From a virus, in the IMG/VR virus record IMGVR_UViG_3300010413_000147, positions 1-34,453 of that record: DNA of 34,453 nt; one strand, given 5' to 3'. The position numbers and the translations under genes were made by a program. Each line of letters opens with the position of its first letter. Position 1 is the stretch's first letter. The notes beneath the pieces are model-generated. The model did not search any database, was not told where the DNA came from, and saw nothing but the letters and a program-made list of their open reading frames with translations. Positions 3,775 to 34,289 of the stretch are shown here, in pieces.

Positions 3775-3803
3775 TTGCAGTGGCACACAGGCTGTGCTAT
3801 ACT
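3775..3803 (+). promoter_or_regulatory. sigma-70-type promoter P2
   Basis: TTGCAG (3775-3780), a 17-bp spacer and TATACT (3798-3803) form a strong -35/-10 pair placed 26 bases before the initiator start at 3829. The element falls in the 63-base gap after the preceding stop and directs transcription into the replication/modification gene group. The spacer word TGGCACACA resembles the sequence just after the P1 -10 (TGGCACACA at 133-141). Confidence 0.75.
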
Positions 3804-3828: not shown

Positions 3829-4602
3829 ATGAGCTTTCCATGGTTCAGATTTTACAGTGAGACAGTGCATGATAGAAAGCTGGCAAAGGTGGCCAGCATG
3901 GCAGGCCTCAGCAAGTGTGAGGCAATAGGGGCTTGGGCCATCCTCTTGGCCCTGGCCAATGAGAGCCCAGGTGAGCTCAGGGGCTGGCTCTTTGTGGCCC
4001 CTGGCCATCCTTTGGCCATGAGTGATCTGGCTGATGCCTGGGATGTGGATGAGGCCAGGGCCAATGAGATCCTGGGGGCCTTTGAGGCCATGGGCCTGAT
4101 TGGCCAGGATCAGGATCCTGATGGGGCCCTGGCCTGGGTGATCTGTGCCTGGGATGGCAGGCAATTCTCATCAGACAGCAGCACAAAGAGGACAAGAGCA
4201 TATAGAGAGAGAAAGAGAAAGGCTGAGGCCAAAGAGAGGGCCAGGCAGCAGGCTGAGGCCTATGCCAGGCTTGAGGCAGAGGCTGTGGCCACAGGTGAAA
4301 CGTCACAGAAACGTCACGGTGACTCGCCAGATCCAGATACAGATACAGAGCCAGAGGCAGAGTATAATGATCTTGATCAAGCCTGGGAAAAGCTCAGCCA
4401 GGGCCTCTCTTGCATGATGAGCCAGGGGGGCTGGGGGGCCTTTCAGCAGCAAGCCAAGCCTGAGAGCCTCACAGATGGCCATCTTGTGGTATCTGTGCCC
4501 TATGAGGTGAGCCCCAGGCTGGCCAAGATCATTGAGAGGGCTGTGCCCATTGCTGGGGATCTTGTGAGCTCTGCCTCTCTCACCCAGAGAAAGGGGGCAT
4601 GA
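3829..4602 (+). CDS. phage replication initiator
   Basis: A 257-residue two-domain protein. Residues 1-115 look like the winged-helix N-domain of phage replisome organisers (opening FPWFRFYSETVHDRKLAKVA, with L-x-D-L-A-D-A-W-D-V and an alternating charged helix). Residues 118-155 form a basic, highly charged linker. Residues 181-240 resemble DnaA domain I, which contacts helicase: AWEKLSQGLSCMMSQGGW, then a strand pair around DGHLVVSVPYEVSPRL. It probably melts the phage origin and recruits host helicase. ATG3829 is chosen because promoter P2 ends at 3803. CpG-containing iterons lie inside the linker-coding region (4297-4323), as origins lie inside lambda gene O. Identification is by architecture, not by a search. 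Confidence 0.65.
   Translation: MSFPWFRFYSETVHDRKLAKVASMAGLSKCEAIGAWAILLALANESPGELRGWLFVAPGHPLAMSDLADAWDVDEARANEILGAFEAMGLIGQDQDPDGALAWVICAWDGRQFSSDSSTKRTRAYRERKRKAEAKERARQQAEAYARLEAEAVATGETSQKRHGDSPDPDTDTEPEAEYNDLDQAWEKLSQGLSCMMSQGGWGAFQQQAKPESLTDGHLVVSVPYEVSPRLAKIIERAVPIAGDLVSSASLTQRKGA
4297..4323 (+). repeat. iterons inside the initiator gene, candidate replication origin
   Basis: GAAACGTCAC occurs twice in direct repeat (4297-4306 and 4308-4317, period 11). The second copy continues into an inverted GTGAC, giving GTCAC-G-GTGAC (4313-4323). A short tandem of AGATCC/AGATAC units (4329-4346) follows. Five CpGs fall within 27 bases here, in a genome where CpG is almost absent, so the bases appear held by function rather than by coding. 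Position in the linker of the initiator is typical of lambdoid-type origins. Confidence 0.6.
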
Positions 4603-4889
4603 TGAAAAGAGAGCCTGTGAGGATTGGGCTGAGCAATAGCAAGCTGGGGCCTCAAGAGGCCCTTTGGCTCAAGGGGGCCATGATATGCACTGGCTGCCAG
4701 TATCATGGGGCTGATCTTGAGGGCAAGCACTCATGTGGCTGGCCAGGATACAAGAGGCCCAGGGGCATGGGCAAGAGTGTGGCTGTGCCAGATTGGTGCA
4801 TGGTGCTCAAGCTCAGGGGCCAGGGTGAGGATCCTGAGCAGGTGGCCTGGGCCCTTGAGCAAAGTGGCCTTGAGGATCTTGAGCCATGA
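4599..4889 (+). CDS. cysteine-motif protein, 96 aa
   Basis: Starts in the ATGA overlap with the initiator gene (ATG4599, with a second ATG directly after). Cysteines lie in C-T-G-C-Q-Y-H, then H-S-C about ten residues later and D-W-C about 20 residues after that: four cysteines and two histidines, enough for one zinc or Fe-S site. The rest is short and basic in the middle (GYKRPRGMGK) and acidic at the end. It is coupled on both sides, between the initiator and the DNA methyltransferase, so a role in replication or DNA handling is possible but not shown. Confidence 0.62.
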   Translation: MMKREPVRIGLSNSKLGPQEALWLKGAMICTGCQYHGADLEGKHSCGWPGYKRPRGMGKSVAVPDWCMVLKLRGQGEDPEQVAWALEQSGLEDLEP

Positions 4890-5608
4890 TGCTGGGCCCC
4901 TATGAGACAGGCCCCAATGGGGCCAATCATGGCATCTTTGAGGGCCAGGCCCAGGATCTGGCCAGAGAGATCCCTGATGAGAGTGTGAGCCTCATCCTCT
5001 GTGATCCAGTATATGATGATCTGGCCTTTTATGAGTTTGTGGCCAGAGAGGGGGCCAGGATCTTGAGGCCTGGGGGCAATTGTGTGGTGCAAGTGGCCCA
5101 CTTTTGGCTTGAGGGGGTGATGAGGCACATGAGCAGGCACTTGCAGTATCTGTGGATCTGCTCTGAGCAATACAGCTTTGGCATGCCCAGGATGTGGGGC
5201 CCCAGGATCTTTGTGGGCCACAAGCCCTGGCTGTGGTATTGGAAAGCTGGCCCAGGGCAGCCCATCAGTGAGAGGCTGGGTGGCTGGGCCAGGGATAGTG
5301 TCAAGGGCAGCAAGGGCAAAGAGTATCATGAGTGGGGTGATGGGGTGGTGGTGGCCTCAGCCTTTCTGCCTCTCTCTTGGCCAGAGGATCCAGTGGTGGA
5401 TCTTTGCACAGGGGGTGGCACAGTGCCAGCAGCATGCAAGATGGCAGGCAGGCCCTGGCTGGCCTTTGAGAGGGATCCAAAGGCTGTGGCTGTGGCCAGA
5501 GAGAGGCTGGCTGGCACAGCCTGGCCACTCATCCCTCTGAGCCTTGATGAGGCCCAGCCCAAGCTCTTTGAGATTGAGGGGGTGAGTGATGATCCAGCAG
5601 AGGCTTGA
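4886..5608 (+). CDS. DNA methyltransferase (N4-cytosine/N6-adenine type)
   Basis: A 240-residue amino-methyltransferase that transfers a methyl group from S-adenosylmethionine to a base. The motif order is permuted (beta class): catalytic motif IV is L-C-D-P-V-Y-D (38-44), and the SAM-binding motif I is V-V-D-L-C-T-G-G-G-T (180-189), followed by the acidic ERDP (about 205-208). RPGG (61-64) and GHKPWLWYWK fit the phage members of this family. Odd point: motif IV reads DPVY where DPPY is usual, so the conserved second proline is missing. There is no room for a large target-recognition domain, suggesting a short target. No restriction partner is near. It has no PCQ motif, so it is not a cytosine-C5 enzyme. 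It overlaps genes on both sides. Confidence 0.82.
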   Translation: MMLGPYETGPNGANHGIFEGQAQDLAREIPDESVSLILCDPVYDDLAFYEFVAREGARILRPGGNCVVQVAHFWLEGVMRHMSRHLQYLWICSEQYSFGMPRMWGPRIFVGHKPWLWYWKAGPGQPISERLGGWARDSVKGSKGKEYHEWGDGVVVASAFLPLSWPEDPVVDLCTGGGTVPAACKMAGRPWLAFERDPKAVAVARERLAGTAWPLIPLSLDEAQPKLFEIEGVSDDPAEA

Positions 5609-23763: not shown

Positions 23764-25701
23764 ATGGCTGAGGCAAAGCTCACCATAATTGTGGACGCAA
23801 AAGATCAGGCCACTCAAAAGCTGGGTGGCATCAAGGGGGCACTCTCTGGCCTGGGTGGCATGGCCAAGAGTGCCCTGAGTGTGGGCATGGGCATGGGGCT
23901 GGCTGCCATCCCTGGCCTGGCCATTGGTGCTGCCAGGGCTGTGGGTGATTTTGTGCAAGAGGCTGCTGACGTTGAGGCTGTGAGCAATACTTTTGGCAAG
24001 CTGGCTGAGAGCATTGGCACTACATCAGATGAGCTCTTGGGTGGGCTCAGGCAGGCCACAAGGGGCATGGTGGCAGATGCTGATCTGATGCAAGCAAGCA
24101 ATAAGTTTGTGGCCATGGGCATTGCTGAGACAGCAGATGAGGCCTCACAGATGGCAGAGGTGGCCACTCAATTGGGCATGGCCATGGGTGAAGATGCTAC
24201 TGCCAGCATGGAAAATTTTGCCCTCATGATGGCCAATCAATCAATCCCCAGGCTTGACAGCTTTGGGATCAGCAGTGGCAAGGTGAGGGCCAGGATTGAT
24301 GAGCTCATGGCCAGCACTGAGGGCATGACAAGAGAGCAGGCTTTCAATATCGCAGTGATGGAACAAGCAGAGGTGGCCATGGCCAAAGTGGGTGAGCAGG
24401 GTGAGGGCACTGCTGCCAAGATGGCCATGGCCAAAGCTGGCTTCGAAAATGCCAAGCTGGCCATTGGCCAGGCCTTTTTGCCCATCCTGGCCAAAGCCAC
24501 TGAGGCCATCAGTGAGCTTGTGCAAAAGTATGGGCCCATGCTGGCTGAGGGGGCTGCCAAAGTGGGTGAGTGGATTGGGCAAGCAATTGAGTATATCCAG
24601 CCTTTCATTGAGGGCCTTGTGGCAGAGTGGGGCCCCAAGATCCAGACGTTCTTTGAGGGGGTGGGCCAGATCATTGAGCAGGTGTGGGCTTTCATCAGCC
24701 CCATCTTTGATGCCCTCTTTGGGGCTTTCTCATCCAGAGGCCCAGAGGCAATGGGCATTTTCAATGGCATTATACAGCAGGTGGCTGGCTTTCTGCAAGG
24801 GCTGCTTGCTGATGCCCTGGCCTTTGTGCAAGCCAAGTTTGCCTTTGTGGTGGATTGGGTGCAAGCCAATTGGCCCCTCATCCAGGCCACAATACAGACA
24901 GTGATCACCACAATCCAGGCAATCATCACCACAGTGCTCTCAGCAATCCAGCAATTCTGGGATCAGTGGGGCAGCACAATCTTGCAATATGTGACCAATA
25001 TCTGGGAAATGATCAAGACAGTGATTGACACTGTGATCCAGGCTGTGCTTGGAATTATCAAGGCAGTGATGCTGGCCATCCAGGGGGATTGGCAAGGGGC
25101 CTGGGATACAATCAAGGCCACTGCTGAGCTCATCTGGGCCAATATCAAGAGGATCATTGGGGTGGCCATGGAAAATGTCAAGATTGTGATTGACATTGCC
25201 CTTTCTTTCATCAAAAGCCTGTGGTCAAAGGCCTGGGGCTGGCTCTCAGAAAAGCTGGGGCCTTTCATTGAGCCCATAGTGGCCAAAGTGAGTGAGTGGG
25301 CTGGCAAGATCAAGGGATTCTTTGAGGATATCAGCAATGCTGTGAGTGGGGTGATTGGGTGGATCAGTGATCTGCTGGGCAAGATTGCTGAGCTTGCCAG
25401 CAAGGCAATCCCCAAGTGGCTGCAAGGCAAGAGCCCACCACCAATGGCCACTTGGCTCAATCAGATTGCTGAGGCAGCCCAGGCAGCAGGTGAGGGCCTC
25501 ACCCAGCAGGGCAATGCAGTGGCCAGGCTGAGGGGCATGCCATCAAGTGCAATGCCCAGCAATGGGGGCCAGCCTGCTGGGCAAAGTGGGCAGGCAGGCC
25601 AGGCCAGGGGCCCCATGTTTGGCACTGTCAACATCTATACCACAGGCCTGGCCCCAGCAGTGATCAATGATCTGGCCATGATCAGAGCAAGGGGGGGCTG
25701 A
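23764..25701 (+). CDS. tape measure protein
   Basis: A 645-residue protein following the chaperones. After a basic N-terminus with hydrophobic glycine-rich turns (SALSVGMGMGLAAIPGLAIG) it is mostly helical. A tape-measure core spans about 70-230 (LRQATRGMVADADLM, TREQAFNIAVMEQAEVAM). Tryptophan- and isoleucine-rich helices follow (PLIQATIQTVITTIQAIIT, IIGVAMENVKIVIDIALSF), repeating about every 22-35 residues, then a glycine/glutamine-rich tail. Tape measures set tail length, at about 0.15 nm per residue, so this one suggests a tail of roughly 100 nm (inference). It may contain membrane-active helices that act in DNA entry. No lytic domain is visible. Confidence 0.85.
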   Translation: MAEAKLTIIVDAKDQATQKLGGIKGALSGLGGMAKSALSVGMGMGLAAIPGLAIGAARAVGDFVQEAADVEAVSNTFGKLAESIGTTSDELLGGLRQATRGMVADADLMQASNKFVAMGIAETADEASQMAEVATQLGMAMGEDATASMENFALMMANQSIPRLDSFGISSGKVRARIDELMASTEGMTREQAFNIAVMEQAEVAMAKVGEQGEGTAAKMAMAKAGFENAKLAIGQAFLPILAKATEAISELVQKYGPMLAEGAAKVGEWIGQAIEYIQPFIEGLVAEWGPKIQTFFEGVGQIIEQVWAFISPIFDALFGAFSSRGPEAMGIFNGIIQQVAGFLQGLLADALAFVQAKFAFVVDWVQANWPLIQATIQTVITTIQAIITTVLSAIQQFWDQWGSTILQYVTNIWEMIKTVIDTVIQAVLGIIKAVMLAIQGDWQGAWDTIKATAELIWANIKRIIGVAMENVKIVIDIALSFIKSLWSKAWGWLSEKLGPFIEPIVAKVSEWAGKIKGFFEDISNAVSGVIGWISDLLGKIAELASKAIPKWLQGKSPPPMATWLNQIAEAAQAAGEGLTQQGNAVARLRGMPSSAMPSNGGQPAGQSGQAGQARGPMFGTVNIYTTGLAPAVINDLAMIRARGG

Positions 25702-28161: not shown

Positions 28162-29257
28162 TCAGTGGCAGGCCTGGCTTTGCACAAAAGATGGCACAAT
28201 CATCAGGCCCATGGCAGGCTTGAGCTCAATTGATATCAGCTTGAGCTTGGGCAGCATTGGCCACTTTGCCCTTGAGTGGCCCTTTGGCCAGGCTGCTGGG
28301 GATCTGGCCAGCTTGCTCAAGAGAGATAGAAAGGTGCTGATCTTTCGTGTGGTTGAGGGCCACTGGCCCCTCTTGATCTGTGCTGGCTGGCTGAGAAAGT
28401 GGGCAGTGGGCAGCACAGTGGCCACTCTCTCAGGGCCTGATCTGAATGGGCTGGCAGCAAAGAGAGTGGTGGCCTATGAGGCAGGCAGCAGCCAGGCTGA
28501 GCAGGTGGGTGCTGCTGATGATATACTCAAGCAGATTGCCAGAGAGAATCTGGGGGCCAGTGCCACTGATGCTGACAGGGATCTGAGTGCCTTTGGCTTT
28601 TTGGTGGCTGCTGATGCCTCTGGCTGTGTGAGCCAGAGCAGGGGCTTTGCATGGAGAGAAGTGGCCAGGGTGTGGGGGGATCTGGTACAAGCCAGCATTG
28701 AGGATGGTGCAGAGCTCTTGTGGGCCATTGAGCCCATTGGGGCCAGTGCCATGATGCTCAAAACGTGGGCTGGCCAGAGGGCTGATAGGAGTTTCCCACA
28801 TGGTGGGCCAGCCCTAGAATTTTCTGAGGCCAGGGGCAATCTCAGTGGGGCCCAATATATTGAGGATTGGCTTGATGAGCATAATGTGATCTATGTGGGG
28901 GGATCTGGCCAAGAGGATCAGCGCACATGGCTTGAGCTTGAGGGATCCATGGCCACTGATGCCATGGCCAGATCAGAGGCTTTTCACAATGCCTCAAGTT
29001 TGGGCACTGACAGCACAGCCCTCACAGATGCTGGCAATAGCAAGCTGAGCAAGCTGGGCCCCATCAAGAGGCTTGAGGGCACACTCACAGAGAGCCCAGG
29101 CCAGATTTTTGGGATCCATTGGAGAATAGGAGATCTTGTCACAGCCAGCCATCTTGGCAAGGCCCACAAGGTGATTATCAGACAGGTGAGCTTGAGCAAG
29201 AGGGGGCACAGTGCCACATCTGTGCTCTCAAAATTCAGTGTGAGGGCCTCAGCATGA
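28154..29257 (+). CDS. baseplate hub protein (ReqiPepy6 Gp37-like)
   Basis: A 367-residue protein after Dit, the usual place of the tail hub or Tal-type protein. It opens W-Q-A-W-L-C-T-K-D-G-T-I-I with a following I-S-L-S-L-G-S-I-G-H-F-A-L-E-W-P strand set. In the middle are a helix D-D-I-L-K-Q-I-A-R-E-N-L-G-A and S-R-G-F-A-W-R-E-V-A-R-V-W. It ends in beta-strands with G-D-L-V-T-A-S and V-I-I-R-Q-V-S-L-S-K. I recall this arrangement from the ReqiPepy6 Gp37-like hub family. TTG28154, behind AAAGAGAGG, overlaps the Dit stop by eight bases. No enzymatic domain is seen, so puncture or receptor contact is more likely than hydrolysis. Confidence 0.62.
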   Translation: MIDQWQAWLCTKDGTIIRPMAGLSSIDISLSLGSIGHFALEWPFGQAAGDLASLLKRDRKVLIFRVVEGHWPLLICAGWLRKWAVGSTVATLSGPDLNGLAAKRVVAYEAGSSQAEQVGAADDILKQIARENLGASATDADRDLSAFGFLVAADASGCVSQSRGFAWREVARVWGDLVQASIEDGAELLWAIEPIGASAMMLKTWAGQRADRSFPHGGPALEFSEARGNLSGAQYIEDWLDEHNVIYVGGSGQEDQRTWLELEGSMATDAMARSEAFHNASSLGTDSTALTDAGNSKLSKLGPIKRLEGTLTESPGQIFGIHWRIGDLVTASHLGKAHKVIIRQVSLSKRGHSATSVLSKFSVRASA

Positions 29258-33375: not shown

Positions 33376-33654
33376 ATGAGCAAGGTGGTGGGCTTTGTGC
33401 TCAGGGATCCTTTGGGCAGGCAGCCAGAGCAGCCAGTGCCAGAGAGCCTGAGCTTGAGGGCCAGGCTGGCTGATGGCACAATCATAGATATGGGCATGGT
33501 GAGGGATGGCACAGCCATTGAGGTGAGGCTGCTGCCTGGCAGTGGCCAGTATATTGGCTTTGTGGATCTGGCCATCTTTCCACAGGTGAGCAATGTGGTG
33601 CTGATCAAGGCTGTGCCCACAGAGCTTGAGAAAGGTGCAAAGGTGAGGCAATGA
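33376..33654 (+). CDS. hypothetical protein, 92 aa
   Basis: ATG33376 (MSKVV) is preferred to ATG33367 because AGAGAGG (33360-33366) is then nine bases away. It is beta-rich and small: K-V-V-G-F-V-L-R-D-P, L-S-L-R-A-R-L-A-D-G-T-I-I-D-M-G, G-T-A-I-E-V-R-L-L-P, Y-I-G-F-V-D-L-A-I-F-P. This may be a six-stranded barrel or OB-like fold. No catalytic residues or cysteines. It is coupled to the next gene through an ATGA overlap. Confidence 0.58.
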   Translation: MSKVVGFVLRDPLGRQPEQPVPESLSLRARLADGTIIDMGMVRDGTAIEVRLLPGSGQYIGFVDLAIFPQVSNVVLIKAVPTELEKGAKVRQ

Positions 33655-34289
33655 GTGAGAAAAGCATGGTGATGGGGGATCCTGGCACAGCCCAGCCCAT
33701 TGGGCTGGGGGTGGTGGCCCAGAGGCCCAATTTTGTGGATGGGGATGAGCAAGGCTGGGATGGGCTCAGAGAGGCATTGGCTGGGCTCAAAGAGAGCATT
33801 GAGCTCAGGCCAGTGCCCATGGCCCCAGCAAAGAGATCAAGGGGCTGGGCTGGGTGGCAAAGTGGCGACAGCAGCATGATCCTGCTTGAGAGGATCTTTG
33901 GGGGCTGGCTGATCCTCTTGTGGAAAGGCCACAGCACATGGATCACAGGCCTCACCAATGATGAGCTTGAGAGGCTCATCACTGAGGGCCCAGATCCTGA
34001 GCTCATGGCCTCTGTGGCCACAGAGGATGAGGCCAGGGCCAAGCAGGGCTTTGAGTTTGGGCCTTGCCCATTTTGCAGACGTAACACAGCCAGGGGCAAG
34101 AGCAGGATGATCAAGGGCACTCTCTGCCATTGGGTTGAGTGTGAGCACTGTGGGGCCATTGGGCCAGCCAGCAGGGATGAGAGAGCAGCCCTTGAGCAGT
34201 GGAATTGTGCATATAGGCCAAAGCTCTCAATGCTCAATCTGATGGCCTCTGTGGCTGTGAAAGGTGAGGGGGATGGCCAAGATCACTGA
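33651..34289 (+). CDS. Lar-like restriction alleviation protein
   Basis: A 212-residue protein. Its C-terminal part (136-186) has the Lar-type zinc ribbon: G-P-C-P-F-C (139/142), then V-E-C-E-H-C-G-A-I-G-P (164/167) and E-Q-W-N-C-A (W184, N185). Lar-family proteins modulate host type I restriction and protect incoming DNA. The N-terminal 130 residues are extra: an acidic region, a strand set (W-L-I-L-L-W-K-G-H-S-T-W) and an acidic helix. Standard Lar proteins are about 60-100 residues, so this is an extended version. It is coupled to the preceding gene and overlaps the next by 17 bases. Assignment to the fold is good; the activity is inferred. Confidence 0.65.
   Translation: MSEKSMVMGDPGTAQPIGLGVVAQRPNFVDGDEQGWDGLREALAGLKESIELRPVPMAPAKRSRGWAGWQSGDSSMILLERIFGGWLILLWKGHSTWITGLTNDELERLITEGPDPELMASVATEDEARAKQGFEFGPCPFCRRNTARGKSRMIKGTLCHWVECEHCGAIGPASRDERAALEQWNCAYRPKLSMLNLMASVAVKGEGDGQDH

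Follow-up and report, generated by a model that had tools for sequence, protein, structure and literature searches.

The window, the whole stretch of 34,453 nts (34.4 kb) that was analysed, is a phage genome with a GC content of 57%. At 3829–4602 on its plus strand is a gene with an ATG start (a longer frame opens with TTG at 3775), and its 257 aa product is a winged-helix phage replication initiator. Among PHROGs it matches phrog_3926, a replication initiation protein (E=1.6e-5), and the DnaD-like phrog_186 (E=6.9e-5); no match to Pfam was found at E<=0.01. The protein is laid out as an N-terminal winged-helix domain, a charged linker, a low-confidence stretch and a small C-terminal part. AlphaFold2 predicts the N-terminal winged helix with confidence (pLDDT is mostly ~90 or higher for residues 11–110) and then a long helix. 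The low-confidence stretch is where the repeats and tract described below are translated and, to judge from the model, it is probably disordered. Scores in structure searches were modest, with MarR-like winged helices found in PDB (general winged-helix matches, none at E<0.001) and phage replication proteins found in BFVD. A single-protein scan of IMG/VR and tblastn in INPHARED yielded no relatives of the initiator, and terminase-related phages gave marginal initiator matches only, without in-gene repeat architecture.

About 470 bp into this coding region, away from any promoter position, lies the element considered here, at 4297–4346. Its order from 4297 is GAAACGTCAC-A-GAAACGTCAC-G-GTGAC-TCGCC-AGATCC-AGATAC-AGATAC. 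The two copies of GAAACGTCAC, at 4297–4306 and 4308–4317 on the plus strand, are direct repeats (iterons) with the core AACGTYAC at 4299 and 4310, giving a spacing of 11 bp. An inverted arm, GTGAC, at 4319–4323 completes a terminal dyad, GTCAC-G-GTGAC, at 4313–4323. After it, also on the plus strand, comes a tract at 4329–4346 that encodes DPDTDT and consists of AGATCC (4329–4334) and two units of AGATAC (4335–4340 and 4341–4346). With two exact units the tract is short, and its AT content is not especially high. The direct repeats, the inverted arm and the AGATAC units had all been pointed out, as lying inside the initiator gene, in an initial annotation of the sequence, and all are present. 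The same annotation counted five CpGs in 27 bases. There is indeed a CpG cluster, at 4301–4326, but it comprises four CpGs in 26 bp, at 4301, 4312, 4317 and 4325.

The genome around this cluster is nearly devoid of CpG. Only 70 are seen where base composition predicts 2670 (o/e 0.026), a genome-wide density of 0.002 per bp, and the nearest CpGs outside the cluster are at 735 and 6168. Avoidance of short words goes beyond CpG in this 57% GC genome; it affects both strands and every codon frame, and includes AAC/GTT, GAC/GTC, GGAG/CTCC, GAAG/CTTC, TTAA and others. AAC/GTT is present 81 times, GAC/GTC 165 times and TTAA not at all, while GGAG/CTCC occurs 21 times (293 expected from trinucleotides) and GAAG/CTTC 10 times (127). 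GCTCC/GGAGC and GGACC/GGTCC are both absent (96, from base composition, and 90 expected respectively). In the terminase relatives, which are of <=60% identity (IMG/VR, a Chloroflexota MAG and Singulisphaera), CpG is normal. Siblings with an equal loss of CpG, sought via the major head protein or the 32599 gene, were not found, nor were close DNA relatives of the genome in INPHARED. At 33651–34289 is encoded a protein matching Lar-like restriction alleviation (phrog_599, E=8.8e-8). Its presence is consistent with, though no proof of, strong restriction pressure on the genome, and the protein may be connected with the way in which restriction words are avoided. This genome-wide loss of short words is a stranger feature than the in-gene element itself.

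If 70 CpGs were uniformly scattered, four would fall within 26 bp with P = 0.0012, and nowhere else in the genome do 27 bp contain as many as four CpGs. Markov models trained on the window itself place the stretch starting at 4296–4299 as its top outlier at orders 2, 3 and 4 with both 30- and 50-bp windows (z 5.9–8.7). [A second small CpG pair, TATCGTCGCAGG at 709–745, is also among the atypical stretches, with z ~4 at Markov order 2.] The sequence AACGTNAC occurs in the genome at 4299 and 4310 only, where 0.01 occurrences are expected from shuffles. In synonymous codon choice, of 9087 windows of 12 codons, the one from 4294 is the most extreme (z 7.7), and the codons of the cluster include the sole TCG among 588 serines and the sole CAC|G among 59 CAY|G contexts. 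Each CpG of the cluster has a CpG-free synonymous alternative, and since all could be removed without change to the protein, it is the DNA, not the peptide, that is being kept. The flanks of the same gene, on either side of the element, fully obey the genome's word bias. That the CpGs are protected by function, as was initially proposed, is upheld at the DNA level by the element being the top outlier both of the Markov models and in synonymous codon choice.

The repeats are conserved in relatives; a lack of such conservation was among the grounds that the initial annotation had named for abandoning its proposal. A pattern specified purely as DNA, in which two copies of AACGTNAC within 14 bp had to be followed within 30 bp by CAGATACAGA, matched 48 other viral contigs, compared with 2 for a control in which the core was scrambled to AACTGNAC. 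All 48 matches are within an ORF (165–408 aa), mostly behind a charged linker. The core AACGTYAC is common to the 43 distinct ORFs, and most of these match the window initiator in phmmer. The best of them (L135) does so with E=5e-29 and 34% identity over residues 3–167, and BLAST alignments of the pattern ORFs cover the N-terminal domain of the window initiator. PF09681 (Phage_rep_org_N) is matched at E<=0.01 by 6 of 22 aligned relatives, and is not matched by the window protein. A second search, with the tract only, again led mostly to initiator genes, and these have repeats directly upstream of it (AACGTTAC, GTAACGC, CGAACGCA, AACGTTGA and others). Diverse initiator families (L091–L138 and other loci) carry in-gene iterons at 11-bp spacing, an AGATAC (Asp-Thr) tract and, often, the dyad. 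No phage paper containing the iteron or tract strings turned up in the open literature searched.

The way in which the parts of the element are conserved differs. In relatives the iteron core is in reading frame 0, 1 or 2 in 38, 37 and 34 cases respectively, and being spread over all three frames it is not kept as peptide. The distance between AACG cores, in both search sets, is 11 bp in 139 pairs with the next commonest, 10 bp, in 32. The frame of successive cores rotates because 11 bp, one helical turn, is not a multiple of three. The terminal dyad, GTYAC-N-GTRAC, is often present and its arms co-vary (T..A 29, C..G 13, all others 13). The AGATAC tract is kept in position after the iterons, but it is nearly always in one frame (AGATACAGA in 149 of 153), and so may be conserved partly as protein. 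When the window is aligned with ten relatives (L136, L096 and L104 among them) the spacing, dyad and tract are the same.

The reading of 4297–4346 that is favoured on these sequence comparisons, with a probability of about 0.88, is that it is a replication origin inside the phage's own initiator gene. The N-terminal winged helix of the initiator would bind the two GAAACGTCAC iterons, which at 11-bp spacing would be on one face of the helix, together with the dyad GTCAC-G-GTGAC. The resulting nucleoprotein complex would open or expose the neighbouring AGATAC tract (4329–4346), the putative unwinding or loading region, with unwinding at the tract or near it. The C-terminal part of the initiator, either directly or via a loader, would then bring the host replicative helicase to the tract. 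The peptide encoded by the element would be a flexible linker tolerating any frame, which would allow the DNA to be both binding site and coding. A switch in GC skew had been put forward as a check on the origin. There is none at 4.3 kb, skew being positive throughout; however, the main genes are all on one strand and skew follows it, so that skew is uninformative about an origin and decides nothing here.

The sites could instead be operators for autoregulation by the initiator, or by another phage regulator, with replication starting elsewhere. Initiator iterons are sometimes autoregulatory, and the MarR-like winged-helix fold of the N-domain is often seen in repressors. Against this, the site is well inside the coding region and not at a promoter, in relatives it goes together with the AGATAC tract and with families of replication initiators, and the precedents from lambda and SPP1 are origins. 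Operator function with replication starting elsewhere is accordingly deemed unlikely.

A separate issue is why the CpGs remain. The initial annotation had the initiator reading CpG-containing sites, possibly in a methylation-sensitive way, and for such a special mechanism support was not forthcoming. CpG-containing cores are ordinary in the iteron class, including in phages of ordinary CpG content, and on this basis a CpG-specific mechanism was rejected. The conserved core covers two of the four window CpGs (4301 and 4312), whereas that at 4317 is at the permissive centre of the dyad and that at 4325 is off consensus. A consensus CpG directly after the dyad is absent in the window. On the best reading, CpG is part of the site that the initiator recognises, and the protein has no special liking for it: the CpGs would stay because the protein reads the core AACGTYAC, in a genome otherwise purged of them. 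Among 101 initiators that match a profile of the N-domain (some of them gathered by means of the CpG-containing pattern), the 66-bp region preceding the tract has 0.090 CpG per bp compared with 0.071 for the rest of the ORF (P=4e-7). The tract-only set, whose pattern lacks CpG, has the same excess (0.086 versus 0.068, P=3e-6). Correlation of CpG density with the contig background is 0.54 (rho) upstream of the tract and 0.94 elsewhere in the ORF. The ten CpG-poorest contigs of the 101-initiator set still hold 3–6 CpGs upstream of the tract; the window has four in 66 bp, in a genome far poorer in CpG than those contigs, the comparison being with phages of normal and moderately low CpG only.

Downstream of the initiator gene, at 4886–5608, is a gene for a CcrM-like methyltransferase (6pbd CcrMI, E=2e-5) with a beta-class layout, and GANTC is found just three times genome-wide, at 25316, at 28546 and at 4321–4325, where it overlaps the dyad. 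These two features lend something to the idea of a methylation-gated origin, in which CpG methylation, or methylation of GANTC by the phage's own enzyme, switches initiator binding. However, GANTC is outside the consensus of the iteron class and is not conserved in relatives, and as the element holds many rare words, one more is weak evidence. The enzyme, moreover, is only a candidate for GANTC methylation and has DPVY in place of DPPY in motif IV, and CpG cores are unexceptional in phages with ordinary CpG. Gating of this type is very unlikely. Scarcely to be expected, too, is that the origin is an island exempt from a pressure that strips dozens of short words from the genome, its state being read through methylation, and that its lone GANTC or the CpGs are modified by the CcrM-like enzyme, thereby timing initiation.

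There would be no need for the CpGs to have a function if the stretch had been acquired recently, from a phage of normal CpG content, and the purge had yet to reach it. The normal CpG of the terminase relatives, and the location of two of the four CpGs outside conserved positions, are in keeping with this. But the word bias is obeyed by the flanks of the same gene on either side, a recombination tract of ~30 bp that matched the iterons exactly is implausible, and the motif is conserved in diverse initiators; recent acquisition is highly improbable. Chance, in the form of a run of amino acids whose codons contain CpG by coincidence (all four CpGs are in coding sequence), is refuted by the Markov outlier, the conservation in relatives, the expectation for AACGTNAC, and a codon choice that is the genome's most extreme where a CpG-free synonym was available for every CpG.

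With an origin in the initiator gene as the preferred reading, sequence alone has sufficed to point out where replication of an uncultured phage probably starts. A testable consensus for in-gene origins across many phages also emerges: iterons with the core AACGTYAC at 11 bp, a closing dyad and an AGATAC tract. A word-purged genome can be viewed as a natural footprint, with the words that survive in it marking sites that a protein must read. The loss of words genome-wide is possibly worth more than the origin finding, and what removes them is the question that it raises.

As in lambda O, an N-terminal domain, in the window initiator a putative DNA-binding one, is followed by a linker that is encoded by the repeats. 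The lambda O-like layout that was initially proposed is in evidence, with iterons midway along the initiator gene and then a putative unwinding tract; lambda ori is mid-gene in O, with four iterons and an AT-rich tract (PMC7466680). The iterons themselves are of other sequence and length. In place of lambda's arrangement the window has two 10-bp iterons, a dyad and the AGATAC tract, and no O/P pair was recognised in it. Two full iterons is fewer than lambda's four, but for lambda two suffice in vitro (PMC7466680). Phage SPP1 has its oriL inside gene 38, and the replisome organizer gp38 binds direct repeats in its own gene beside a DNA unwinding element (PMC6316719). The likeness to it, origin repeats within the initiator's own gene, is one of layout and not of compared repeat sequences, and SPP1 differs in having a second origin, oriR. 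The window shares with these systems direct repeats in the initiator coding sequence, which in its own case are kept as DNA and not as peptide.

The replisome organizer and DnaD-like initiators with AACGTYAC iterons (PF09681, phrog_10469, phrog_3926, phrog_186 and phrog_678) have a homologous N-terminal winged-helix domain with a W[DN]xRQFxSDSS block, and their iterons, dyad and tract are arranged as in the window. The window has their core spacing of ~11 bp and the terminal dyad, but differs from them in that its protein lacks a Pfam match and its genome is nearly CpG-free outside the element. Most likely, going by these sequence features, the element is a new instance of an in-gene phage origin with the known layout of lambda O and SPP1 gene 38. 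What is rare about it is its setting in a word-purged genome.
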